Source: Nitratireductor sp. B36 (GTDB lineage Bacteria; Pseudomonadota; Alphaproteobacteria; Rhizobiales; Rhizobiaceae). From it: a stretch of DNA of 64,000 bases. Below the pieces are notes generated by a model. That model searched no databases, was not told the origin of the DNA, and was given only the letters and a program-made list of their open reading frames with translations. Positions 41,918-54,748 of this stretch are shown here, piece by piece; within the stretch, counting starts at the first letter, position 1; every line of letters starts with the position of its first letter. The stretch is taken from NCBI RefSeq assembly GCF_020833685.1, contig NZ_JACKZY010000001.1, forward strand, positions 1,004,578 to 1,068,577, written 5' to 3'. Both the position numbers and the translations under genes were made by a program.

Positions 41918-43381
41918 ATGCGTCAGCTCGACGAATTGTCTCTCGCGTTCGGCTGCGCTCTGATGGCGCTGCTTTGCGGATGTGCGAGCACGCCCACAAC
42001 GAAGCCTGCCGACGCACTCAACGGGCAGCCAAGCAGCGAAATAACCGGATCGATCACACCGTCAACCGACGCGCCGAGCGCAGCGGATGAAGCATCGCCT
42101 GCCCGAAGCGGGCAAAGCAAGATGCCCCAATTGTCTGCCGGGCCTGGTGGCGGGCAAAGCCCTACCGGCCTGGCCGCGCTGGTACGCCGTGCATTGACCT
42201 GGCACCCTTCGGTGAAGGAAACGGTTGAGCGTCTGAACCAGCAGAATGAGATCGTGGAGCAAGCACGGGCCGGTTATCTGCCGCAGGTGAATTGGGGCGT
42301 GAACTCCTCCTATGGAAGAGACGCGAATGAAAGCGGATACAGCCCCACCGTCAACCTCTCCGCATCACAGATGGTCTACGATTTCGGTAAGGTCGACCAT
42401 AAGATAAAGGTTGAGCGAGCTGGTGTTGAGGGCCGCAGATCGCAAGTGCTGCTCCGGGTGGATGAATTGATCCGCGATACCGTTCTGGCTGTCACCGAGG
42501 TGCAGCGCAATCAGGCACTCGGCAGGATTGCTCAAGATCAGGTCCGCGATACCCACGCCATTCTCGACCTCGTGCGCGCCCGCACCGACAAAGGTGCAAG
42601 CACGCGTTCCGATCAGCTTCAAGCCGAGGCGCGGGTGCAGGCAGCGCGCGCAAAGGAACTCGAAATAAAAGCCCAGGCGCGGCGCTGGCAGAGCAGGCTC
42701 GACACTCTTACCGGAGGGGCTGCCCGTGCCGGAACACCCGCTGTTGTAAAAGCACCGAAATGGCTGAGCGAGGCCTGCGCGGTCAATAAGCCGGACTGGT
42801 CGCAGATTCCCGCGATCATGCAGGCAGACGCCGAACGGGCAGCCGCAACTGCGCAAGTCGATCTGAGCAAGGCAGAGGGCCTGCCCACCTTCTCGCTTGA
42901 AGCCAGTGTGGGGGCCGACCTCCTGGAACTGGATGATAGCGATCCCGAATACAATATCGGTGTGAATGTTAAGGGGAGCCTCTACAACGGCGGCGAGAAC
43001 GCGGCCCGCAATCGCGCAGCCAACCGGGCTTTGCTCGCATCATCACAGGCACGCGATCGTGTCCGGGTGGAGGTCGAAGGCAAGCTGCTTGAGGCCAACG
43101 GACAGATTGCCAGCTATCGGCAGCTTCTCGAATCCATTACCTCGCGTGAAGCGATGATGAAGCAGACACGTGACCTTTATCGCAAACAGTATCTGGATCT
43201 GGGCACGCGGACACTTCTGGACCTCCTCAACGCGGACCAGGAATTTCATGCCGCCCGTTTTGAAGCAGCAAACATCCGCTACGACCTGCAGAAACTGAAC
43301 GTGGACTGCGCATTTCAAACAGGGCTGCTGCGCCGCTACCTCTCTCTGGAGGGAGAGCAACTCCACGGTGTTCGCCTTTAG
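41918..43381 (+). CDS. TolC-family outer-membrane efflux/secretion lipoprotein
   Basis: A 487-aa outer-membrane factor for type I secretion. The N terminus has a lipobox-like LLCGCAS (residues 19-25), a Pro/Ser-rich linker to about residue 85, then two TolC-like repeats with long coiled coils (for example RVQAARAKELEIKAQARRW) and porin segments (VNLSASQMVYDFGKVD; IGVNVKGSLYNGGEN). It should form the exit duct with the ABC and HlyD proteins at 47168-50562. A CGGAG ribosome site precedes the ATG. It may be a separate transcript, since a 367-base AT-rich gap follows. Confidence 0.88.
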   Translation: MRQLDELSLAFGCALMALLCGCASTPTTKPADALNGQPSSEITGSITPSTDAPSAADEASPARSGQSKMPQLSAGPGGGQSPTGLAALVRRALTWHPSVKETVERLNQQNEIVEQARAGYLPQVNWGVNSSYGRDANESGYSPTVNLSASQMVYDFGKVDHKIKVERAGVEGRRSQVLLRVDELIRDTVLAVTEVQRNQALGRIAQDQVRDTHAILDLVRARTDKGASTRSDQLQAEARVQAARAKELEIKAQARRWQSRLDTLTGGAARAGTPAVVKAPKWLSEACAVNKPDWSQIPAIMQADAERAAATAQVDLSKAEGLPTFSLEASVGADLLELDDSDPEYNIGVNVKGSLYNGGENAARNRAANRALLASSQARDRVRVEVEGKLLEANGQIASYRQLLESITSREAMMKQTRDLYRKQYLDLGTRTLLDLLNADQEFHAARFEAANIRYDLQKLNVDCAFQTGLLRRYLSLEGEQLHGVRL

Positions 43382-43748: not shown

Positions 43749-46700
43749 GTGGCAGCTGTAATTTCAGTTAAAGGGACCGGGAGCGAGAGAACCGCAGCTC
43801 TTGACGCTATCGTTCTGGATGCGCCGAGTGTCGTCACGCTGAAAATCTCTCCTGCAGCAGTGGATAGTTTTACCCGGGAAGGCAATCACCTTCTCTTGAA
43901 GCTGCATGACGGGCGCCTGATCAGAATCGCGAATTTCTATCTTGAAAGTGAAGGTGCCAAAAGCGACCTGGTTCTAGAGGATCCAAGCGGGAATCTCTGG
44001 TTTGGAGATCACACGGCGGGTCTCGCTGACTTTCAGTTCTCCGAAATTGCCTCTGTCGATCAGCTTGTGGGGGGTGGGGCAGGCGGTTCCTCGCTGCTAG
44101 GTTTGGCAGGCCTCGGCCTTCTCGCCGGCGGTGCCGCCGCGCTTACCGGTAGCGGCTCGAAAGCTGACGACAGTGATGCGGATGCCGATGCCGATGCCGA
44201 CGCAGATGCTGATGCTGACGCGGATGCTGACGCAGACGCAGATGCGGACGCAGACGCAGACGCAGACGCAGATGCCGATGCCGATGCTGACGCGGATGCA
44301 GATGCGGACGCCGACGCGGATGCAGATGCTGATGCGGATGCTGACGCAGATGCAGATGCAGATGCAGATGCCGACGCGGATGCGGATGCCGACGCCGATG
44401 CCGATGCGGATGCTGACGCCGATGCCGACGCTGATGCAGATGCAGATGCCGACGCGGATGCAGATGCTGACGCGGATGCCGATGCTGATGCAGATGCGGA
44501 TGCCGATGCAGACGCGGATGCGGATGCTGACGCAGATGCAGATGCAGATGCAGATGCCGACGCGGATGCGGACGCCGATGCCGATGCCGACGCAGATGCG
44601 GACGCGGACGCAGATGCTGACGCCGATGCGGATGCCGATGCAGATGCAGATGCCGATGCCGACGCTGACGCTGATGCGGATGCGGACGCCGACGCGGATG
44701 CTGACGCCGATGCCGACGCGGATGCAGATGCCGATGCGGATGCTGATGCTGATGCGGATGCAGATGCCGACGCGGATGCCGATGCAGATGCCGATGCCGA
44801 TGCCGATGCTGACGCAGACGCCGATGCGGACGCTGATGCAGACGCGGATGCAGATGCTGACGCAGACGCCGATGCAGATGCCGACGCAGATGCCGACGCT
44901 GATGCAGATGCTGACGCTGATGCCGATGCGGACGCCGACGCAGATGCCGATGCCGATGCCGATGCCGATGCCGACGCGGACGCTGATGCCGACGCCGACG
45001 CTGATGCAGATGCTGATGCAGACGCCGACGCTGATGCAGATGCTGATGCAGACGCGGATGCTGACGCCGATGCAGATGCTGACGCCGATGCAGATGCCGA
45101 CGCGGATGCCGACGCAGACGCGGACGCGGATGCTGACGCCGATGCAGACGCGGACGCGGATGCCGACGCAGACGCGGACGCCGACGCCGACGCCGACGCC
45201 GACGCTGATATTCAGGCCTATGATGATTTTGCCAGAGCTGAGGTGAATATTCTTCCGACGGCCTCATCAGTCGATCACGGCAGCGCAAATTATCTGGCAC
45301 TCGTTTCAATCGGTGTGTTGGACCTGCAGGCCGAAGTTCTGGGAACCTCGACCGTCAACTTCAGCGTTGAAGAAAATCACACTCTGGAAGCGGACTTCGA
45401 TTACAGCGCTCTCGCCTCTCTGGGCGTCCTCAGCGACTATTCGCTGGTCATCCAGAAATGGGATGGCACGCAATGGACCGGCATTGACGGCACCGGTGAA
45501 GCGACGCTGCTCGAGCTTGGCTTGTTGAGCGGAAACGAATACCGCGTCGAGCAACTCCTCGAATCCGGCCAGTACCGGGCCTTCATGACATTCGAAGGTG
45601 TCGGGGCCGGTGTGCTCGGCGACCTGCAGGTGTCTGGCACGGACTACGATTACACCGAGATCGGGGGTTACGATCCGGTTCCGGTTTCCGGCAATGTCAT
45701 CACGGATGTGAATGACGACGGGCAGCTCGATGACGTCACGCCCACAACAGTGATCGCGCAGGTGAACGGAGAAGCGGTGGCCGGACCGGGAACCACCATC
45801 GTCGGCACCTATGGCACGCTTACCATTGGTCCCGACGGCAGCTACACCTATACGCCCAATGCAGCAGGCGATGGTATCGGGCAGGTGGATGCGTTCACCT
45901 ATACGCTGAACGATCCTGAGACAGGAAATACCTCGACAGCGACGCTCTATGTGCAGATCGACAGTGCCGGGCAAGGCCTGGTGTGGAACGACCTCGATCC
46001 GACACAACCCGCCACGCTCGACATGAGCGCAGTGGACGACGCTGGAACAGCCGGGATCGACACGACCTATGTCGTCACCACCCAGCAGGTCGACAATGCC
46101 ATCCAGTACACAAACGTGTTGGGCGGTGGCGAAGGAAGTTATGATTTCAACGTTGCGGATCAGGTCGAGACCGACCTGTCCATTGCAGTCAGTTCTTCCA
46201 GTCTGCTCAATCTTCTTGAGGCCATCGAGTTCTCGCTGGAACAATTCATTGACGGCGCCTGGGTGGAGATCGCGAACAGCAGCGAGGGCGGGCTGATCGA
46301 CGTGATCGGTATCGTTGGCGAATCAATCGAAGCGACGATTGATGACCTGCCGACAGGTCAGTATCGCCTAAATGTCTCCAATAGCGGGATCGCCATTGGC
46401 GTCACCGTTAGCGCCGACCTGACCTTCGAAAACAGCGATCTGACGCAGATCGTGGCGGAGGGTGGCGTATCAACACAGGGCAACGTGCTCGAGGACGATA
46501 CGCTGGGCTCGACCTATACGGTGCTTAAAGTGGCGCCTGACGGCGTGACTTATGAAGAGCCTGCGCAGGCAGGAACGCAGCTTGTGGGCACGTATGGCAC
46601 ACTCACGATTTTCGCCGATGGTCGGTACAGCTACGCACCGGATCCCGACACGGCATCGATCGGTCAGTCAGACGTCTTCACCTATCAGCTGGAGCACCCG

Positions 46701-47093
46701 AACGGCACGACCGTCGAAGCCACGCTCACCATAGAGATCCAGCATGGCGCCGGGCCGGGTACCTTTGCCGCATTTGCATCGACCCAGCCGCTGTTTGCCA
46801 CAGACGATGTGATCGGGCTCGACAGCCTCGACCAACCGAACGAGGAGGATAGCAGCCCCGGCAAGACCACATCCTCAGACGGCCCAAGACTGTTTGGCCT
46901 GCTTGAGGATGGAGGCAGTCCGGACGTGCCCTTGGACAACATCGAAACGCTTTCGCAGCAGACAGAAAGCGCTGCGGCCAAAGGCGCGGTCAGCGATGGA
47001 GCATCCGAGCTTGGCGAAGGCGTGCCGGTCGATCCCTTCGGCCACCTGGTGCAAGAAGACGACCTGGATGACACCGGATCGGCTGGCGTGTAG
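43749..47093 (+). CDS. BapA-like secreted surface protein with a (Asp-Ala)172 tract
   Basis: A 1114-aa protein. Residues 1-105 resemble the prefix domain of BapA/LapA-type adhesins ([45 protein letters not shown]). A Gly/Ala-rich hydrophobic stretch follows (residues 108-136, including [11 protein letters not shown]). Residues 143-486 are 172 uninterrupted Asp-Ala dipeptides. Residues 487-1010 hold two tandem modules, each ending in a VCBS-like unit ([38 protein letters not shown]). The last 100 residues are acidic, without RTX nonapeptides. The GTG start has AGAGG before it. It lies between TolC-like and ABC/HlyD genes, so type I secretion is the obvious route. The tract gives a net charge near -172. 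Confidence 0.85.
44175..45206 (+). repeat. 172 tandem GAYGCN hexanucleotides coding for (Asp-Ala)172
   Basis: 1032 bases made only of Asp codons alternating with Ala codons. Both Asp codons and all four Ala codons are mixed, so DNA-level identity is broken while the peptide is perfect; the longest run of one identical hexamer I noticed is five. Larger internal duplications are visible: about 50 bases around 44341 recur with an offset of 186 bases (31 units), and a 30-base period repeats near 44995-45055. Because the unit contains no stop in any frame, long false frames appear on both strands. Confidence 0.97.
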
Positions 47094-47167: not shown

Positions 47168-49372
47168 ATGATGGGCCCCGACATGGAGCAGGTGGAACTA
47201 CCTGATCGAGATAGGCCCGATCTCTCGGCCTGGATCGAGGCGCTGGAACATGTGGCGCGGCACTACAACGTGCCGTTTTCCGCACAGGGTGCCCGCCAGC
47301 TGGCGCAGGCCCTGGAAACGCCCGACAAAGCCGAGAGCATCATCAGGGTGTCCCGAAAACTGGGGCTGCGGGCAAAGCCAGTGCGGCTTCGCAAGCTCCA
47401 TAGCTGGCGCCTGCCGGTTCTGGTCGAGTTCGAAAACGGGCTTGTCGGGGTTGTAGTTGCACTGAGCGCAGAGCGACACGCATCTGTGGTCTTCAGCGGT
47501 GATGCCGGCCAGCCCACCCCCATCCCGCTCGACGACCTGTTGAACGAAACGCGGCTGATGGTGCTCGCCCGCCCTCAGCGCGCAATCGCCGATGAACGCG
47601 TGGACGCCTATATCGCTCCCTATCGCAGGAACTGGTTCCGGCGCATCGCTCTGCGTGATCTGCGGCCCTATGCCCATGTGATGCTGGCCTCGCTCATGGC
47701 CAATCTCCTCGCGCTGGCCGGCATCATCTTCTCCATGCAGGTTTATGACCGGGTGGTGCCAGCAAACTCGATGAACACCCTCTTCGTCCTGTTTTCAGGT
47801 GTGTTGCTGGCAGTGCTCTTCGATTTCATCATACGCCGGCTGCGAACAGGCATTCTCGACACGGTGGGCAAGCGCGTCGACCTGCGGATGTCCGACGTTC
47901 TTTTTGGCCATGCATTGCGGGTCAAGAACACAGCCCGACCGACATCCACGGGGACGTTCATTGCGCAACTGCGCGATATGGAACAGGTCCGCGAATTGCT
48001 GACGTCGACAACAGCGTCGGCCGTCTCGGACCTTCCATTCTTCTTTCTCTTCCTCGGTATATTCTGGCTCATTGGCGGACCGCTGGTCATCATTCCCGCC
48101 GCGGCCCTCCTTCTGTTGGTCGCTCCGGGGCTGATGGCTCAAGGCAAGCTGCGCGCCAGTGCGCGCGAAGCCATGCGCGAGGCCTCGTTGCGCAATGCGA
48201 TGCTGGTCGAGGCGGTGCAGGGCATCGAGGACGTGAAAGCGTTGCAGGCGGAGGAGCGCTTTCAGCAACGCTGGAACCATTTCAACGCCGTCGCAGCCGA
48301 GGCCCAGCTGCGCCTCCGCTCGATCACCAGCGCGCTCACGGGATGGGGCCACACGGTGCAGACAGGCACGTTCGCTGTCATCGTTTTCTTCGGTGCGCCG
48401 TTGGTCATGAATGGTGACATGACTACGGGCGCTCTGGTTGCCTGTTCCATTCTGGGCTCGCGGATGATGGCGCCCATGGCGCAGATCACTCAGGTGTTTG
48501 GCCGTCTGCAGCAGGCAAAAGTCGGACTGAAAAGCCTCAACGCGATCATGGAGATGCCGGTAGATCACCCCGATACCGAGGTGCGGGTGTCGGCAACGGC
48601 TCTGCGCGGCGCATACCACATGCGCATGGCCGTGTTCACCTATGGCGATTTCAGCATGCAACCGGCGCTGACGGTAAAGGATCTGGACATAGAAGCCGGG
48701 GAGAAAGTCGCCGTTCTGGGTAAGAATGGCGCCGGCAAGTCCACATTTTTGCAAGCGCTTTCAGGCATGATGGAACCATTTTCTGGAGATGTGACCCTGG
48801 ACGATCTCGCGCTTGGCCACATCGATCCTGCGGATGTCAGACGTGATGTCGGTCTGCTCACACAGAACGCGCGGCTCTTCCATGGCACCATCCGGGACAA
48901 TGTCACGCTTGGAGCACCACATGCTTCGCAGGACGCACTCTTCGAAGCTCTGGCCATGGTGGGCGCAGATGAATTCATACGCCGCCTGCCGCAAGGTCTC
49001 GATCATCCCATCCAAGAGGGTGGCCTCGGGCTTTCAGGCGGTCAGAGGCAGTCACTGTTGCTGGCTCGTCTGCTGATCAGACAACCGACAATCATCCTTC
49101 TCGACGAGCCCACCGCGGCAATGGATGAGGCGACCGAGCGCCAGTTCATAACGCGCTTCAACGATTGGGCCGCGGACCGGACAGTGGTGATCGCCACACA
49201 CCGCATGCGCATTCTCGATCTGGTCGAGCGGATCGTTGTGTTCGACAACGGTCAGGTGGCGCTGGATGACAGAAAGGATGCGGCCTTGAAGGTGCTGCAA
49301 GGCGTGAAAAAGGTCGTCCCGGCCAATCGACCGGGCAATCGTCAAGCCGCGAATGAGGAGAGCCGATCATGA
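47168..49372 (+). CDS. Type I secretion ABC exporter (LapB-type) with degenerate peptidase-like domain
   Basis: A 734-aa permease-ATPase. Residues 1-140 form a C39-peptidase-like domain without an obvious catalytic cysteine at its start, typical of exporters of large adhesins. About six membrane helices occupy residues 165-430. The ATPase has Walker A LGKNGAGKSTFL, signature LGLSGGQRQSLLLARLL, Walker B IILLDEPTAAMD and the H-loop in VVIATHR. It sits 74 bases after the repeat protein and overlaps the HlyD gene by four bases. It should drive export of the (Asp-Ala) protein. Confidence 0.93.
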   Translation: MMGPDMEQVELPDRDRPDLSAWIEALEHVARHYNVPFSAQGARQLAQALETPDKAESIIRVSRKLGLRAKPVRLRKLHSWRLPVLVEFENGLVGVVVALSAERHASVVFSGDAGQPTPIPLDDLLNETRLMVLARPQRAIADERVDAYIAPYRRNWFRRIALRDLRPYAHVMLASLMANLLALAGIIFSMQVYDRVVPANSMNTLFVLFSGVLLAVLFDFIIRRLRTGILDTVGKRVDLRMSDVLFGHALRVKNTARPTSTGTFIAQLRDMEQVRELLTSTTASAVSDLPFFFLFLGIFWLIGGPLVIIPAAALLLLVAPGLMAQGKLRASAREAMREASLRNAMLVEAVQGIEDVKALQAEERFQQRWNHFNAVAAEAQLRLRSITSALTGWGHTVQTGTFAVIVFFGAPLVMNGDMTTGALVACSILGSRMMAPMAQITQVFGRLQQAKVGLKSLNAIMEMPVDHPDTEVRVSATALRGAYHMRMAVFTYGDFSMQPALTVKDLDIEAGEKVAVLGKNGAGKSTFLQALSGMMEPFSGDVTLDDLALGHIDPADVRRDVGLLTQNARLFHGTIRDNVTLGAPHASQDALFEALAMVGADEFIRRLPQGLDHPIQEGGLGLSGGQRQSLLLARLLIRQPTIILLDEPTAAMDEATERQFITRFNDWAADRTVVIATHRMRILDLVERIVVFDNGQVALDDRKDAALKVLQGVKKVVPANRPGNRQAANEESRS

Positions 49373-50562
49373 CGCTGCTTCACAAGGACGACACGCACGG
49401 CTGGGAGTATGGCGATCACGACGATGTCCGGCTGTCACGATCCACACGCATTGTGCGGGTTCTGTGCTTCCTGCTGGCGGCAGCGCTTGTATGGTCGTAT
49501 TTCGCAACCCTCGATGAGGTGTCTTCAGGCAGCGGACGCGTTATCCCAACCAAGCGTGAACAGGCGATCGAATCCTTCGAAGGCGGTATTCTTGCCGCGC
49601 TTCACGTTCGTGAAGATCAGGTGGTGAATCCGGGCCAGTTGCTGGCGCAGCTCGACCCCACGAGAAAAGCGTCCGACGTAGAAGAAAGCGCAGCCAAGTA
49701 CCGGGCCGCCCAGGCCGCGTCCGCGAGACTGCAGGCAGAGGTCAATCAGACACCGCTTCGGTTTCCTGAAGACCTGCAGGAATATCCAGATCTGATCAGA
49801 GCGGAACGCGAGCTCTATGAGGAGCGACGGCGCTCCTTGCGTGCATCGCTGCGTTGGATCGAAGAATCACTCCTCCTCGTCACCAAGGAGCTGGAGATCA
49901 ACAAATCTCTGTCTGCGATCGGCGCGGCGAGCAATGTCGAAATCATCCGCCTTCAGCGTCAGGCCGCCGAGCTGGAACTCAAGAAAGCCGAAGTCAAATC
50001 CGAGTACCTTGTTCGCGCCCGGGAGGAACTCTCCGAAGCCAACGCCGAGATGAGCGCTCTTTCCCCGGTTGTCCGAGGCCGCTCCGACAGTCTCGCCCGG
50101 TTGACCCACCGCTCGCCAGTGCGCGGCATCGTCAAGAACATCGAGGTTTCCACCATCGGGGGCGTCGTCCCCCCGAACGGGAAGCTAATGGATATCATTC
50201 CACTTGATGATCAACTGCTCATCGAGACCCGCATCTCGCCGCGCGATATCGCCTTCATCCATCCGGGCCAGAGAGCGAACGTCAAGATCAGCGCCTATGA
50301 CTACGCCATCTACGGAGACATTGACGGAGAGGTGACAACCATCTCACCGGACACAATCCAGGACGAGGTGGAGAAGGAGAAATATTACTATCGCGTCTTT
50401 ATCGAAACCGATGATGACGCCCTCGTCAACGAGGCTGGAAAGCGTTTTCCCATCGTGCCGGGGATGGTCGCCACCGTCGACATTCACACCGGAAGCAAGA
50501 CCGTTCTGGACTACCTCATCAAACCTTTCAATCGCGCGCGCGAAGCACTGCGTGAACGTTAA
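49369..50562 (+). CDS. HlyD-family type I secretion adaptor
   Basis: A 397-aa membrane fusion protein: a cytoplasmic N terminus, one membrane helix (residues 29-47, VLCFLLAAALVWSYFATL), a lipoyl half-domain (GRVIPTKREQAIESFEGG), a coiled coil (residues 105-230), then the second lipoyl half and beta barrel (LTHRSPVRGIVKNIEVST; GQRANVKISAYDYAIYG). It bridges the ABC exporter and the TolC-like duct. Start overlaps the ABC stop (ATGA); the Mur-ligase gene follows 10 bases later, so these three genes form one translation-coupled unit. Confidence 0.94.
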   Translation: MTLLHKDDTHGWEYGDHDDVRLSRSTRIVRVLCFLLAAALVWSYFATLDEVSSGSGRVIPTKREQAIESFEGGILAALHVREDQVVNPGQLLAQLDPTRKASDVEESAAKYRAAQAASARLQAEVNQTPLRFPEDLQEYPDLIRAERELYEERRRSLRASLRWIEESLLLVTKELEINKSLSAIGAASNVEIIRLQRQAAELELKKAEVKSEYLVRAREELSEANAEMSALSPVVRGRSDSLARLTHRSPVRGIVKNIEVSTIGGVVPPNGKLMDIIPLDDQLLIETRISPRDIAFIHPGQRANVKISAYDYAIYGDIDGEVTTISPDTIQDEVEKEKYYYRVFIETDDDALVNEAGKRFPIVPGMVATVDIHTGSKTVLDYLIKPFNRAREALRER

Positions 50563-50572
50563 GGCAGAACCT

Positions 50573-53500
50573 ATGCGACACGAGAAATTCGACGGCTTGT
50601 CAGAAATCAGAACGGCTCTGCGCAAAGGCATCGTGCCGCTTCAGGCACCGTTTCCGGCGGTGGTGTTGTTTTTTTCCGTTTCCGACGGCGAGATGCGTGC
50701 GCGCGTGGTCTCTGCCACCGGCGCCACCCTCGAAGCCGCATGGCAAAAAGGGCTGGCGCAACTTCGGCAAGTCATGCGCAAGGACAGGCTCGAAGGGCGA
50801 TGGCTGCGGGTGGACTGGATTGATCGCGCCGAGGCCTGCAGTTGGAAGGATTTGCGTGAGAGTCTGACCCGTACCAAGCGAAATTATTTTCGATGCGGTA
50901 TTGCGCTCGATGCAGGCTTTCACAGGGCCTTCTTGGAGCAGGAGCTGAATGCGAATGCGATGCTTTATGGCGGCAATCGCATGGCCCACGCCACACTCAA
51001 CGAGAAGAATTTCGCACGATATGCTGGTGCGAAATATCCCGGCACCGCCGCCATGGATTTCAATGACGAGCGGGCGGTTTTCATATTCTCCACAAAAGGC
51101 GTGTTCCGCGATGTCGATGGCGGTCTGCATCCACTCAACGAAGCGGGACCGGATGCGGGACGGCGGCACGTCGAAGACCTCGACGCCCCTCTCGTCGATC
51201 ATCTGGTTCGATCGGCCTCTGGATATCTCGCCCGGCAGGTGGGAGATGATGGCGCATTCGTTTACGGGTTCCACCCCTGTTTCGACCGGCGCATTGAAGC
51301 ATACAACACGCTGCGCCATGCAAGCACCACCTACGCCATGCTTGAAGCCTGGGAAGTGACGCGCGAGGCGACACTGAAAAGCGCCATAGATCGCTCCATT
51401 GGGCGTATGAATCGGGAGTTCATTCGCGAAGCTGATCTACCGGATGGCGGGCGGGCTGCATTCCTGGTGGATGTCGGCGACGAGATCAAGCTGGGTGGCA
51501 ATGCCGTCGCTCTGCTGGCGCTCAGCAAATATACGACCACCACCGGCGACCAGACCCATCTTCCGTTGATGGAAAAGCTCGCGCTCGGCATTCTTTACAT
51601 GCAGGATCGGCGAACCGGCTCGTTCAACCATGTGCTGCACTTTCCCTCCTTGGAAATGAAGACGGCTTTCCGCACCATCTACTACGAGGGCGAAGCTGCC
51701 TTCGGCCTGATGCGTCTCTATGACATCACCAGGGATCCTCGTTGGCTGGATGCCGTGGAAAAGGCGTTCGACCATTTTATCGCCCAAAACCACTGGCGCC
51801 ATCACGACCATTGGCTGAGCTATTGCGTCAACGAACTGACCCGCCATCGACCGGAAGAGCGCTATTTCATCTTCGGGCTGCAAAATGTCGCCGGTCATCT
51901 GGATTTCGTGCGGCAGCGCATCACCACTTTTCCCACGCTTCTTGAACTGATGATGGCTGCACGCTCTTTGATCAGTCGGATCGGCGATTTTCCCCAGATG
52001 ACGCATCTTCTGCGCAGGATCGATCTTGTCGCGTTCAGTGAAGCGCTCGAGTTTCGTGCCCGATACCTGTTGAACGGGTTCTTCTGGCCGGAGACAGCGA
52101 TGTTCTTTCGAACGCCGAACCGGGTGGCGGGGAGCTTTTTCATTCGCCACCATGCGTTCCGGGTGCGCATCGACGATGTGGAGCACTATTTGTCCGGCTT
52201 CATAGCATACCGGAATTATCTCCAGCTGCGCCCCGGTTTCCAGTCACTGGTGGCGCAGCATTCACGTGATCCTGCTGACCGTAGACCTCTTCTGCGCACG
52301 TCGACCGCCGCCATCTGGAACTCGTCCACCGTTGCCGAGGCAACGGGCGGCCACTGGATCGTTCCGCCGGAGACTGGCTGGACCGCTACGGGACTGTGCA
52401 TTCACGCTCCCACGCGCAAGCCCGGGCAAATGGTCACCATGCGTGTCGGAAAGACCGGTAGAGGAATACCACCGAACGTGATTGCCGGCATGAAGCCGCC
52501 ACCGGCGGCTATCATCACGGATAATCCCCAGGCCCCGGTCCCAGACAATATTCCCGTTCTTGCGGTGAGAGATACCGGAGCCGCCATTCTCGCCCTGGGG
52601 CGCTATGCGCGCCAGCGTATGAGCGGCAAGCTTCTCGCCATCACGGGTAGCGCCGGAAAGACGACATCCGTCGCAATGCTGGCCCACGCACTGTCGCCAT
52701 ATGGAAGCGTCGCCCAGACCGCGCACAATGCCAATCTTCCACACGGTGTGGCCTGGAATCTTGCCTCGATACCTGCTGCGACAGATCACGTGGTGCTCGA
52801 GCTGGCGGTCGGCCGCATGGGTCAGAGCGCGCGCATGGCGAAAGCGGATGTCGCCATTTTTACCAACATAGCGCCAGCGCACCTCTCCGAGACAACCACG
52901 CCGCGCGACATCGCCGTGACAAAAAGCGCGATCTTTGAGGGCATGACTTCGGGTAGCGTGGCAATCCTCAACCGCGACATGCAGGAGTGGGATGTGGTCC
53001 ACGCCGCCGCTCGGGCCCGCAACCTGAAAATCCTCCATTATGGCCTCGGCGAGGAGTGCGAATATCGGCTTATCAATTACGACGCGCAAAACGGATCTGT
53101 TGAGGCCCGCGTCAATGGGCAGGCAGTGCGGTATGCGCTTGGTGCCGCCGGCGAGCACATGGCGCTTAATAGCCTCGCCATCCTTGCTGCTGTGGCGGCC
53201 CTCGGGCACCCGCTTGATGCGGCCCTAGACCAATTGGCCAGTTTCTCGCCCCTGCCCGGACGCGGTGCAGAGCACCGGCTGACCATCAACGGGTGCACCA
53301 TTCATCTGATAGACGATGCCTACAATGCCAACCCAGCCTCCATGAGAGCCGCCTTTGCCAATCTCGGCAAAAGAACCGGGGCTGGTCGGAGGATCGCTTT
53401 TTTGGGCGAGATGGCAGAGCTGGGTGCTCAAAGCCGGGATTTTCACACCGGTCTGGCACCCCTGATCGAGGCAAATGGCATCGACCGGGTTTGCGTGCTC

Positions 53501-53686
53501 GGAACACTTTACGAAGATTTCTGGGCCGCCCTGCCGGATGCCTGCAAAGGAGTTTACGCGAAAACACTGGAAGAGATGCACCAAGCATTTCTTGCAGATA
53601 TCCGGAATGGCGACATTGTGTTGATCAAGGGATCCAACAGCACCAGACTGCATACCCTTGCAGGCGCCATCGCGAATATCCGTTGA
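50573..53686 (+). CDS. MurF-like ligase fused to a large alpha/alpha-toroid-like N-terminal region
   Basis: A 1037-aa protein. The C-terminal part, from about residue 660, is a complete Mur ligase core like MurF: P-loop ITGSAGKTTSVAML (about 690-703), HNANLPHGVAWNL, IFTNIAPAHLSE, the carbamoyl-Lys region TKSAIFEGM, DDAYNANPASMRAA (from 914), FLGEMAELG and VLIKGSNSTRLH. The MurF UDP-substrate domain is absent. Residues 1-200 are unrecognised; about 240-400 show repeating helix pairs (GGNAVALLALSKYTTTTGD; YYEGEAAFGLMRLYDITRD), as in alpha/alpha toroids of glycosidase or LanC type. It starts ten bases after hlyD. ATP-dependent amide ligation is expected; the acceptor is unknown, and the Asp side chains of the repeat protein are my candidate. 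Confidence 0.8.
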   Translation: MRHEKFDGLSEIRTALRKGIVPLQAPFPAVVLFFSVSDGEMRARVVSATGATLEAAWQKGLAQLRQVMRKDRLEGRWLRVDWIDRAEACSWKDLRESLTRTKRNYFRCGIALDAGFHRAFLEQELNANAMLYGGNRMAHATLNEKNFARYAGAKYPGTAAMDFNDERAVFIFSTKGVFRDVDGGLHPLNEAGPDAGRRHVEDLDAPLVDHLVRSASGYLARQVGDDGAFVYGFHPCFDRRIEAYNTLRHASTTYAMLEAWEVTREATLKSAIDRSIGRMNREFIREADLPDGGRAAFLVDVGDEIKLGGNAVALLALSKYTTTTGDQTHLPLMEKLALGILYMQDRRTGSFNHVLHFPSLEMKTAFRTIYYEGEAAFGLMRLYDITRDPRWLDAVEKAFDHFIAQNHWRHHDHWLSYCVNELTRHRPEERYFIFGLQNVAGHLDFVRQRITTFPTLLELMMAARSLISRIGDFPQMTHLLRRIDLVAFSEALEFRARYLLNGFFWPETAMFFRTPNRVAGSFFIRHHAFRVRIDDVEHYLSGFIAYRNYLQLRPGFQSLVAQHSRDPADRRPLLRTSTAAIWNSSTVAEATGGHWIVPPETGWTATGLCIHAPTRKPGQMVTMRVGKTGRGIPPNVIAGMKPPPAAIITDNPQAPVPDNIPVLAVRDTGAAILALGRYARQRMSGKLLAITGSAGKTTSVAMLAHALSPYGSVAQTAHNANLPHGVAWNLASIPAATDHVVLELAVGRMGQSARMAKADVAIFTNIAPAHLSETTTPRDIAVTKSAIFEGMTSGSVAILNRDMQEWDVVHAAARARNLKILHYGLGEECEYRLINYDAQNGSVEARVNGQAVRYALGAAGEHMALNSLAILAAVAALGHPLDAALDQLASFSPLPGRGAEHRLTINGCTIHLIDDAYNANPASMRAAFANLGKRTGAGRRIAFLGEMAELGAQSRDFHTGLAPLIEANGIDRVCVLGTLYEDFWAALPDACKGVYAKTLEEMHQAFLADIRNGDIVLIKGSNSTRLHTLAGAIANIR

Positions 53687-53929: not shown

Positions 53930-54748
53930 GTGGCAGAAGAGCATAAAGCAGAGACAAAAGAACCCCTTTACGTGGTTCCCCCGGTGACCAGAGCAATTGC
54001 GCTGCTTCGCTATATCGCGGCGGGCAATCGGTGCCGCAACATAAGCAATGCGGCGAAGGCGCTCGACATCAACCGCACGACGCTCATCCGTCTGCTTGCG
54101 ACGCTCGAGGCAGAAAGCATGATCGAACCCATTGCCGATGATGGCGGATATCGTCTCGGCACCGGCCTCATCGCTCTTGCCTCGGAGGCCCTGAACGAGC
54201 GAAGCATACTTCAGGTCGCGCGGCCCTTCCTCAAGCAGCTTGTCGAATCACTCAATCTGTCGGCGCATCTTGGCGTTCTGGAGGGTCGGGAGATTGTCTA
54301 TCTGGCGCGTGAAACACCGAATTCACACCTTGCCAGCACCGTGCGCGAGGGAACCCGGCTGCCGGCGCATGCGACCACCATCGGTCGCATCCTTCTGGCG
54401 GAACTGCCGATTGCCTCACTCCGGTCCTTATATGCCGGTCAGACGATGGAATCGTTTACGACCAAAACACGCACCACACTTGCGGATCTGGAAAAGCAGC
54501 TTCAGTCCGACCGGGCCCGTGGGATTGCGTGGAGCGTTGCTAATTTTGAGCGCGAGATCGGCTCCGCTGCAGTCGCAATTCACGACCATCAGGCACGTGC
54601 CGTTGGTGCCATCAACGTGACCGGTCACGCGAGCATTTTTGATGAAAACAGTCCCAATGCAGGGAAAATCGAGCAGGAGCTCAAGACCGTCGCCCGCGCC
54701 ATGTCCGAAGCTTTGGGCTATCGCGGCTGGTCAGCCGATCAACTGTAG
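53930..54748 (+). CDS. IclR-family transcriptional regulator (meta-cleavage locus)
   Basis: A 272-aa IclR regulator. The winged helix is at about residues 15-80 (NISNAAKALDINRTTLIRLL), then the effector domain with LARETPNSHLASTVREGTRLPAHATTIGR and GAINVTGHAS. The start is a GTG at 53930, without a strong ribosome site. It is convergent with the aromatic operon at 54739-64000 (3' ends overlap by 10 bases), so a regulatory link is plausible from position. It is distinct from the IclR at 15128. The 243-base gap before it shows no gene and none of the island's inverted repeats. Confidence 0.85.
   Translation: MAEEHKAETKEPLYVVPPVTRAIALLRYIAAGNRCRNISNAAKALDINRTTLIRLLATLEAESMIEPIADDGGYRLGTGLIALASEALNERSILQVARPFLKQLVESLNLSAHLGVLEGREIVYLARETPNSHLASTVREGTRLPAHATTIGRILLAELPIASLRSLYAGQTMESFTTKTRTTLADLEKQLQSDRARGIAWSVANFEREIGSAAVAIHDHQARAVGAINVTGHASIFDENSPNAGKIEQELKTVARAMSEALGYRGWSADQL

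Follow-up and report, generated by a model that had tools for sequence, protein, structure and literature searches.

In the 64,000-nucleotide stretch of the Nitratireductor sp. B36 genome analyzed here (contig NZ_JACKZY010000001.1, positions 1,004,578 to 1,068,577; hereafter the window), one gene encodes a protein of 1037 amino acids (aa) in which a MurF-like ligase follows an unfamiliar amino-terminal module. We refer to this module (residues 1-560) as N and to the whole product as the N-Mur protein. N forms a family of its own, whose members stand alone or are joined to varied partners, and it associates with surface proteins bearing Asp-X tracts, in which aspartate recurs at every second position, in Proteobacteria as well as in Firmicutes. 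The reading that we favor, and hold to be rather probable, is that the N-Mur protein is an adhesin-modifying enzyme: N would engage the Asp-X tract and the Mur half would join an amine to the Asp side chains.

N is encoded beside Asp-X tracts in two phyla

A search of a genome collection returned 89 relatives, of which 80 were kept as loci (L numbers denote loci, G numbers genomes). The fetched DNA was scanned in six frames for at least eight consecutive D-[AGSTDNVE] pairs. Such a tract was present in the window and in 34 of the 80 first-fetched loci. Extending the flanks revealed more, among them a tract at each of the five Variovorax N+Mur loci that were checked (L140-L144), at L037 and L038, and at an Atlantibacter locus (950 residues). 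In the pooled table a tract accompanies N in 71 of 117 neighborhoods, a count that is biased toward finding more tracts, since flanks were extended mainly at tract-free loci, and that comes from non-independent neighborhoods, many of them from Variovorax, Agrobacterium and Staphylococcus. The table leaves out L001-L006 and small adhesin loci, and the ligase-only locus L084 was swapped for the N locus of its genome.

A plasmid search with N gave 54 records from ten genera, and a tract was found at all 18 loci examined. Staphylococcal plasmid tracts lie in Sdr/Pls/SdrF-type and in Rib/alpha-like proteins, those of Listeria and Enterococcus in LPXTG or adhesive-domain proteins, and further tracts in proteins, not all of them annotated, of Klebsiella, Agrobacterium, Sulfitobacter, Nitratireductor and Rhizobium. 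In Acinetobacter baumannii the tract is short (16 aa) and about 17 kb upstream. For BAP of A. baumannii, a 38-residue insertion made up mostly of tandem Asp-Ala has been described within the N-terminal region (PMC4647330). Three records of the plasmid collection (NZ_CP030101.1, NZ_CP104448.1 and LR134125.1; 0.8-4 Mb) resemble chromosomes or large chromosome pieces. In a Bacillota sample N was found in 9 of 299 genomes, one of them previously known, with a tract beside N in 6 of the 8 others; the exceptions are L214, with no tract within about 9 kb, and L218, where a contig end truncates the N gene.

N itself is rare. A class sample of 385 genomes gave one full match, in the window's own genome, and two partial ones, and in a family sample of 295 genomes the center genome alone matches N at E<=1e-50. 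Residues 1-571 share 39.2% identity over 83% of their length with a Staphylococcus simulans plasmid protein (tblastn). At least two N matches per genome occur in 11 of 44 genomes (e.g., G393, G410, G412, G414, G417 and G419), and several Variovorax genomes combine one tract-linked N+Mur gene with one N+CapA+Mur gene that has no tract within about 9 kb.

If tracts were common in adhesins of this type, they would also occur without N. We therefore used a control sample of 198 genomes in the family of Pseudomonas sp. MYb185 (G400), 29 of which have BapA_N, together with two genomes from the class sample; the window genome lies outside the resulting 31. Five of the 31 carry N and all five have a tract, compared with one of the 26 N-free genomes (G473, 40 residues; Fisher 3.5e-5, or 1.1e-3 without the two genomes chosen for having N), where loci extend about 1.5 kb past each BapA_N hit, three second hits have no locus, L165 (G578) has 1,000 masked bases, and L170 and others stop at contig edges. 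That every BapA adhesin has such a tract is thus ruled out. The adhesin model NF045619, applied to the 44 relative-bearing genomes (24 matched, 6 above cut-off), did not separate tract-bearing from other adhesins.

Partners of N are exchanged and follow tract composition

By profile, N occurs alone, as N+Mur, N+CapA, N+CapA+Mur, N+Mur+CapA, N+Mur+S11 and N+GT4 (a glycosyltransferase, GT), and fused to three ATP-grasp domains. The CapA fusions correspond to PF09587. An S11 D-Ala-D-Ala carboxypeptidase-like domain follows Mur in L031 (by Pfam), L211 and L009, the last of which served to build the S11 profile. In L230 (9806-14947, plus strand) the three ATP-grasp domains resemble YheC/D and cyanophycin synthetase (CphA), and the gene lies near that of a 504-aa Asp-Ala tract protein; the match to the cyanophycin synthetase model reaches 375 bits, below the cut-off of that model, and PF14398 is above cut-off. 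A D-Ala-D-Ala ligase (Ddl) gene lies near the fusions in three Paraburkholderia loci (L011, L021 and L025, by clustering, with a Pfam check in L021). A FastTree built from 116 N domains shows at least 22 switches of fused partner, and for 42 of these N genes none of the domains searched is fused to N.

Several loci carry further companions of N. Genes for ATP-grasp proteins (about 670-700 aa, an acylphosphatase domain being present in one of them) lie beside N+CapA+Mur in L035 (14628-16637, minus strand) and L077 (8599-10719, minus strand). In L199 (5298-10047, minus strand), a tandem pair of N genes precedes a separate MurF-like ligase gene, near a 278-aa Asp-Ala tract. N is followed by a tail of about 220 residues with an HxD...H pattern in L037 (8962-11313, plus strand) and L198 (13320-15803, plus strand). 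The match of this tail to Asp/Asn beta-hydroxylase (E 6e-4 in L198 and 4e-3 in L037, both below the Pfam cut-off, and no match in L045) is a hint only.

Partner type goes along with the alternating residue of the tract. Among the 71 neighborhoods with a tract, the Ser share exceeds 0.9 in four of the five with GT4 (0.37 in the fifth) versus one of the 66 others (Fisher 2.5e-5; the GT4 profile was built from a single protein). The pairing of GT4 with serine and of Mur with Asp-Ala was proposed after a Klebsiella Asp-Ser locus with an N-GT4 fusion had been seen; the Asp-Ser locus of G552, read after that proposal, has an N-GT4 fusion, as expected. Ligase partners occur mostly with Asp-Ala tracts, beside which carboxylate-amine ligases of two unrelated folds are represented, Mur and ATP-grasp (L230).

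The window gene closes an adhesin and type I secretion cluster

In the window, the N-Mur gene comes last in the cluster, on the same strand as the other genes, starts 10 nt past the end of the HlyD-type gene and lies three genes downstream of the adhesin that we propose as its substrate:

41918..43381, plus strand: TolC-type outer membrane protein (TIGR01844, 228 bits)
43749..47093, plus strand: BapA/Bap/LapF-type adhesin of 1114 aa, the proposed substrate (PF22783 BapA_N, 84.7 bits; NF045619, 425 bits)
44169..45206, plus strand: Asp-Ala tract of 346 aa within the adhesin, the proposed modification site (173 D, 172 A, 1 S)
47168..49372, plus strand: type I secretion ABC transporter, LssB type (TIGR03375, 768 bits)
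49369..50562, plus strand: HlyD-type membrane fusion protein (TIGR01843, 327 bits)
50573..53686, plus strand: N + MurF-like fusion gene (open reading frame, 1037 aa)
53930..54748: IclR regulator, downstream of the N-Mur gene

The first and second codon positions of the tract are constant in all but one codon, the third positions vary, and all eight synonymous Asp-Ala hexamers occur. Since essentially only third positions vary, selection appears to act on the tract peptide rather than on a DNA repeat, and a chance DNA repeat is ruled out on the same ground. The window genome contains six Mur_ligase_M matches, the N-Mur gene included, and the one in locus L002 aligns as MurF.

A predicted toroid precedes a complete MurF-like ligase

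Three parts can be distinguished within the N-Mur protein:

50573..51172, plus strand: extra alpha/beta domain, tentatively of AMMECR1-like fold (residues 1-200; AlphaFold2, structural match)
51170..52246, plus strand: predicted (alpha/alpha)6 toroid of the AGE / cellobiose 2-epimerase type (residues 200-558; AlphaFold2 fold comparison)
52307..53677, plus strand: full-length MurF-like ligase, one loop of domain 1 altered (residues 579-1035; Pfam, NCBIfam, alignment to MurF)

An earlier note on this DNA, made from the sequence, had held that the MurF N-terminal domain, which recognizes the UDP-linked substrate, was absent. This is contradicted by our alignments. The stretch 579-1035 can be aligned throughout with residues 2-465 of the MurF of the same genome (33% identity), and the NCBIfam MurF model PRK14093 is aligned from its own position 2, so domain 1 is, by alignment, present. 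It comes after N, which rules out the N residues as its substitute. What differs is a loop in domain 1, where GERFDGHDF of MurF is replaced by GKTGRGIPP, and owing to this replacement UDP-MurNAc recognition is probably altered. The suggestion of a changed acceptor thus survives in spirit, with one loop rewritten instead of a domain exchanged.

The note was right in expecting the catalytic residues to be kept. Two Pfam families are matched at E<=0.1, Mur_ligase_M (690-873) and Mur_ligase_C (904-1021), and the protein has the P-loop TGSAGKTT, the lysine region KSAIF (assigned by sequence position only) and the block DDAYNANP. We aligned 34 ligase halves, namely the window protein and 33 of 58 available relatives. 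The P-loop GK[ST] and the carbamoylated-lysine position are each found in 31 of them, and the C-terminal NANP in 24, with DANP in three more; loss of the ligase residues, which in most homologs would have spoken against the reading of the note, is confined to three of the 34. The N-Mur protein aligns over the full MurF length and shares with MurF the P-loop, the lysine region and the NANP block; it differs from MurF in the replaced UDP-side loop, the fusion to N, the adhesin-operon setting and a score below the NCBIfam murF cut-off (256.7 versus 288.6 bits).

The amino-terminal half is as unfamiliar as first described, with no Pfam family in residues 1-640 at E<=0.1. Residues 1-571 were modeled by AlphaFold2 from an alignment of 56 rows (the window protein and 55 of 78 available relatives) with a pLDDT of 94.0 and a pTM of 0.93. 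The alpha/alpha toroid that had been suspected is indeed predicted for residues 200-558, which match cellobiose 2-epimerase with Z 26.9 and a root-mean-square deviation (rmsd) of 2.7 A over 321 residues. A Foldseek match to 3wkf has E 1e-7; cellobiose 2-epimerases and other AGE proteins come first among the structural neighbors, followed by GH76, YihS and terpene-cyclase toroids. At the sequence level, the PDB matches of the 56-row profile include no epimerase at E<=10. The alignment contains 59 invariant columns, many of them polar, 56 of which fall into the toroid region. Residues 437-532, approximately, weakly resemble YceG/MltG (PDB 2r1f, E 0.008; NCBIfam PRK10270, E 0.007 and 0.001).

Residues 1-205 modeled alone gave a pLDDT of 90.5 and no Foldseek match at E<=0.001. 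The closest aligned chain is 1vaj (Z 7.5, below 8; rmsd 4.0 over 149 residues), and 1vaj, 1zq7 and 1wsc are all matched by a PF01871 AMMECR1 protein. Sequence comparison gives no support for this assignment (hhalign probability 0.1; AMMECR1 absent among Pfam matches at E<=1), and the likeness in fold is consequently a lead only and was not counted.

Staphylococcal GtfC is a member of the N family

Sequence comparison places GtfC of Staphylococcus aureus (SACOL0051, pls-gtfC-gtfD locus) in the N family. All 26 bases of the published primer GtfC-F are matched in the N gene carried by S. aureus plasmid pWBG759, and the peptides encoded by GtfC-F, GtfC-R and GtfD-mutF (STNFLQNM, YETTHLL and KNPSRILG) recur in several N proteins of staphylococci. 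In L222, GtfD-mutF matches at four mismatches and not at three or fewer, and GtfD-F and GtfC-mutR have no close match in any of the seven loci compared (5-9 mismatches). GtfC, with 538 aa, is encoded directly downstream of an adhesin with an Asp-Ser (some Asp-Ala) tract. Unlike the N-Mur protein it has no Mur half, and its partner is the glycosyltransferase GtfD, acting on Ser, of which the window tract holds one in 346 residues.

No glycosylated, periodic acid-Schiff (PAS)-positive Pls was obtained without GtfD, so that GtfC alone is insufficient; with GtfD alone, Pls glycosylation was weak for the COL genes and absent for the 1061 genes, and both together gave full glycosylation (PMC5230774). 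This helper role of GtfC fits N as a tract-handling module that aids its partner, not as a general requirement. GtfC had been called a glycosyltransferase from BlastP resemblance, and CAZy predicted none (PMC5230774). N proteins of staphylococci, Listeria and Acinetobacter are likewise annotated as poly(glycerol-phosphate) alpha-glucosyltransferase/GT4. We reject this annotation, because a toroid is predicted for the N of the window protein and no GT domain was found: the N-only proteins of S. simulans and A. baumannii have no Pfam hit at E<=0.05, and the N proteins of L222 and L232 no NCBIfam hit at E<=0.01. The described pls locus has gtfC and gtfD and no Mur gene (PMC5230774).

SdgA and SdgB also perform a dedicated modification of Asp-X tracts, in Sdr adhesins, and an SdgB-like GT4 gene lies beside N in L232 of Staphylococcus epidermidis (611 bits against the SdgB model, below its cut-off of 800). 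They differ in transferring GlcNAc to serine, in involving no ligase and in working on Pls without GtfC. Two putative glycosyltransferase genes adjoin sesJ (PMC7029136, PMC4850167). The excerpt of PMC13235738 makes no mention of modification. Paracoccus denitrificans BapA, an adhesin with 891 Asp-Ala repeats that is required for biofilm, resembles the window adhesin in its tract and its adjacent type I secretion system; it runs significantly above its mass on SDS-PAGE, and the authors leave a modification possible (PMC5588039). Among the literature matches listed, no title or abstract opening links a Mur ligase with Asp-X adhesins. "Mur ligase" is absent from the 15 papers listed out of 296 in one search, and none of the papers of another contains it together with "dipeptide repeat". 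The passages and listings surveyed describe no modification of almost purely Asp-Ala tracts.

A proposed route of tract modification and its alternatives

We propose the following route. The N-Mur protein is presumably cytoplasmic, where N would bind the Asp-Ala tract of the adhesin. Of the long chain or sugar polymer that the earlier note had imagined in the toroid, the chain fits, and it is likely the Asp-X tract of the neighboring adhesin and not a sugar polymer. The Mur half, with ATP, would then activate the Asp carboxylates as acyl phosphates and add an amine to the side chains, D-Ala-D-Ala or another small amine of that kind being the likeliest, ahead of export of the adhesin by its type I secretion system. 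Asp is the proposed acceptor because its carboxylate is the only reactive side chain in Asp-Ala tracts and because the partners at these tracts include two unrelated folds of ATP-dependent carboxylate-amine ligases. D-Ala-D-Ala as the amine is weakly suggested by the retained MurF C-terminal block, the nearby Ddl genes and the D,D-carboxypeptidase-like domains. In cyanophycin synthesis, CphA uses Mur-type and ATP-grasp ligases to form amide links on Asp carboxylates, and it makes its own backbone. Some ATP-grasp partners of N resemble CphA; by contrast, the Asp-Ala backbone considered here is ribosomal, and the N-Mur protein has no ATP-grasp family among its Pfam and NCBIfam matches. A more specific version, in which a captured MurF decorates ribosomal Asp-Ala tracts with D-Ala-D-Ala (or another amine) and N is a general Asp-X reader whose partner is set by the alternating residue, is put forward tentatively and, taken as a whole, is somewhat doubtful.

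Several observations weigh against the proposed modification. No tract was found in 46 of the 117 neighborhoods, 24 of which have both CapA and Mur and come mostly from Variovorax, whose genomes often contain a second N gene; some of the rest sit at contig ends. Where Mur, CapA, GT4 and S11 were not found, a tract is still present in 21 of 30 neighborhoods, so not every neighborhood requires a linked ligase. In three Variovorax/Xenophilus N+Mur proteins (L026, L030 and L032) the P-loop and the lysine are lost and N is kept, and the L026 gene lies beside a 112-aa tract. Ser-rich tracts occur with Mur instead of GT4 in L211 (Ser share 0.93, Mur+S11) and L223 (0.70, Mur). N is not needed for every tract modification, since SdgA and SdgB glycosylate Pls in S. 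aureus strains that were given pls without gtfC and gtfD (PMC5230774). HexNAc (N-acetylhexosamine) is the sole modification on mild-acid Pls peptides (PMC5230774), although, as noted, that locus has no Mur gene. Finally, what has been shown is association, from which the modification chemistry is inferred, and clustering alone could reflect a shared role in surface display. As a separate observation, the Mur half of L026, L030 and L032 looks as though it became dispensable.

Among the alternatives, N could itself be the enzyme, an AGE- or glycosidase-like toroid that epimerizes, trims or transfers sugar on Asp-X tracts, with the Mur half being secondary. The order of structural neighbors (cellobiose 2-epimerase ahead of GH76 and others), GH88 hits below threshold in L038, L036, L045 and L196, the many polar residues among the 59 invariant columns and the occurrence of N where no partner was detected all argue for it. 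We regard it as unlikely nonetheless, given that a fold match does not demonstrate activity, that ordinary O-glycosylation would find no hydroxyl in Asp-Ala tracts, and that GtfC without GtfD yields no PAS-positive Pls (PMC5230774). Quite unlikely, too, is a non-catalytic N that escorts the unfolded, highly acidic tract and holds it for secretion or for other enzymes, its partners being loosely associated. The frequent change of partner on the tree (at least 22 times among 116 domains), the 42 N genes without a fused one and the raised activity of GtfD in the presence of GtfC (PMC5230774) would suit an escort; the fusion to ATP-dependent ligases would be odd for it, and the toroid region, with its 56 invariant and often polar columns, looks catalytic.

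The CapA fusions (PF09587) and the cyanophycin-synthetase-like ATP-grasp partner would be consistent with a Mur half that makes a free amino-acid polymer or capsule, similar to cyanophycin or poly-gamma-glutamate, with the adhesin as a mere neighbor. This is very improbable, as tracts are present in 33 neighborhoods with Mur and without CapA, and the link to tracts is weakest where CapA and Mur occur together (4 of 28). Hardly credible, finally, is a peptidoglycan enzyme, a MurF paralog for UDP-MurNAc peptides that sits in the adhesin operon by chance: the end-to-end alignment and the C-terminal block would fit it, whereas the UDP-side loop is rewritten, murF is present elsewhere in the genome, and across two phyla N recurs next to Asp-X proteins, with GT4 sometimes taking the place of Mur.

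Implications for dipeptide-tract adhesins

Adhesins with Asp-Ala and Asp-Ser tracts drive biofilm formation (PMC5588039, PMC5230774). Dedicated modification of dipeptide-tract adhesins is already known, and glycosylation is established for Asp-Ser tracts; the association with N now provides a specific, testable prediction for Asp-Ala tracts. Here the link to the substrate is well supported, and the chemistry is potentially new and unproven. A modification could account for Paracoccus BapA running above its mass (PMC5588039). GtfC gains a new structural identity, as a predicted toroid module and not a glycosyltransferase.

If the specific version of the proposal holds, the adhesin would carry a cyanophycin-like brush, built on a template and imitating the stem ends of peptidoglycan. 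This brush might be recognized by penicillin-binding proteins, which would tie the adhesin to the wall, or its bulk might make it a stopper in the type I channel. The alternating residue would select the attached enzyme, Ser a glycosyltransferase and Ala a carboxylate-amine ligase. The association with N also suggests that a cell-wall ligase has been recruited to protein modification.

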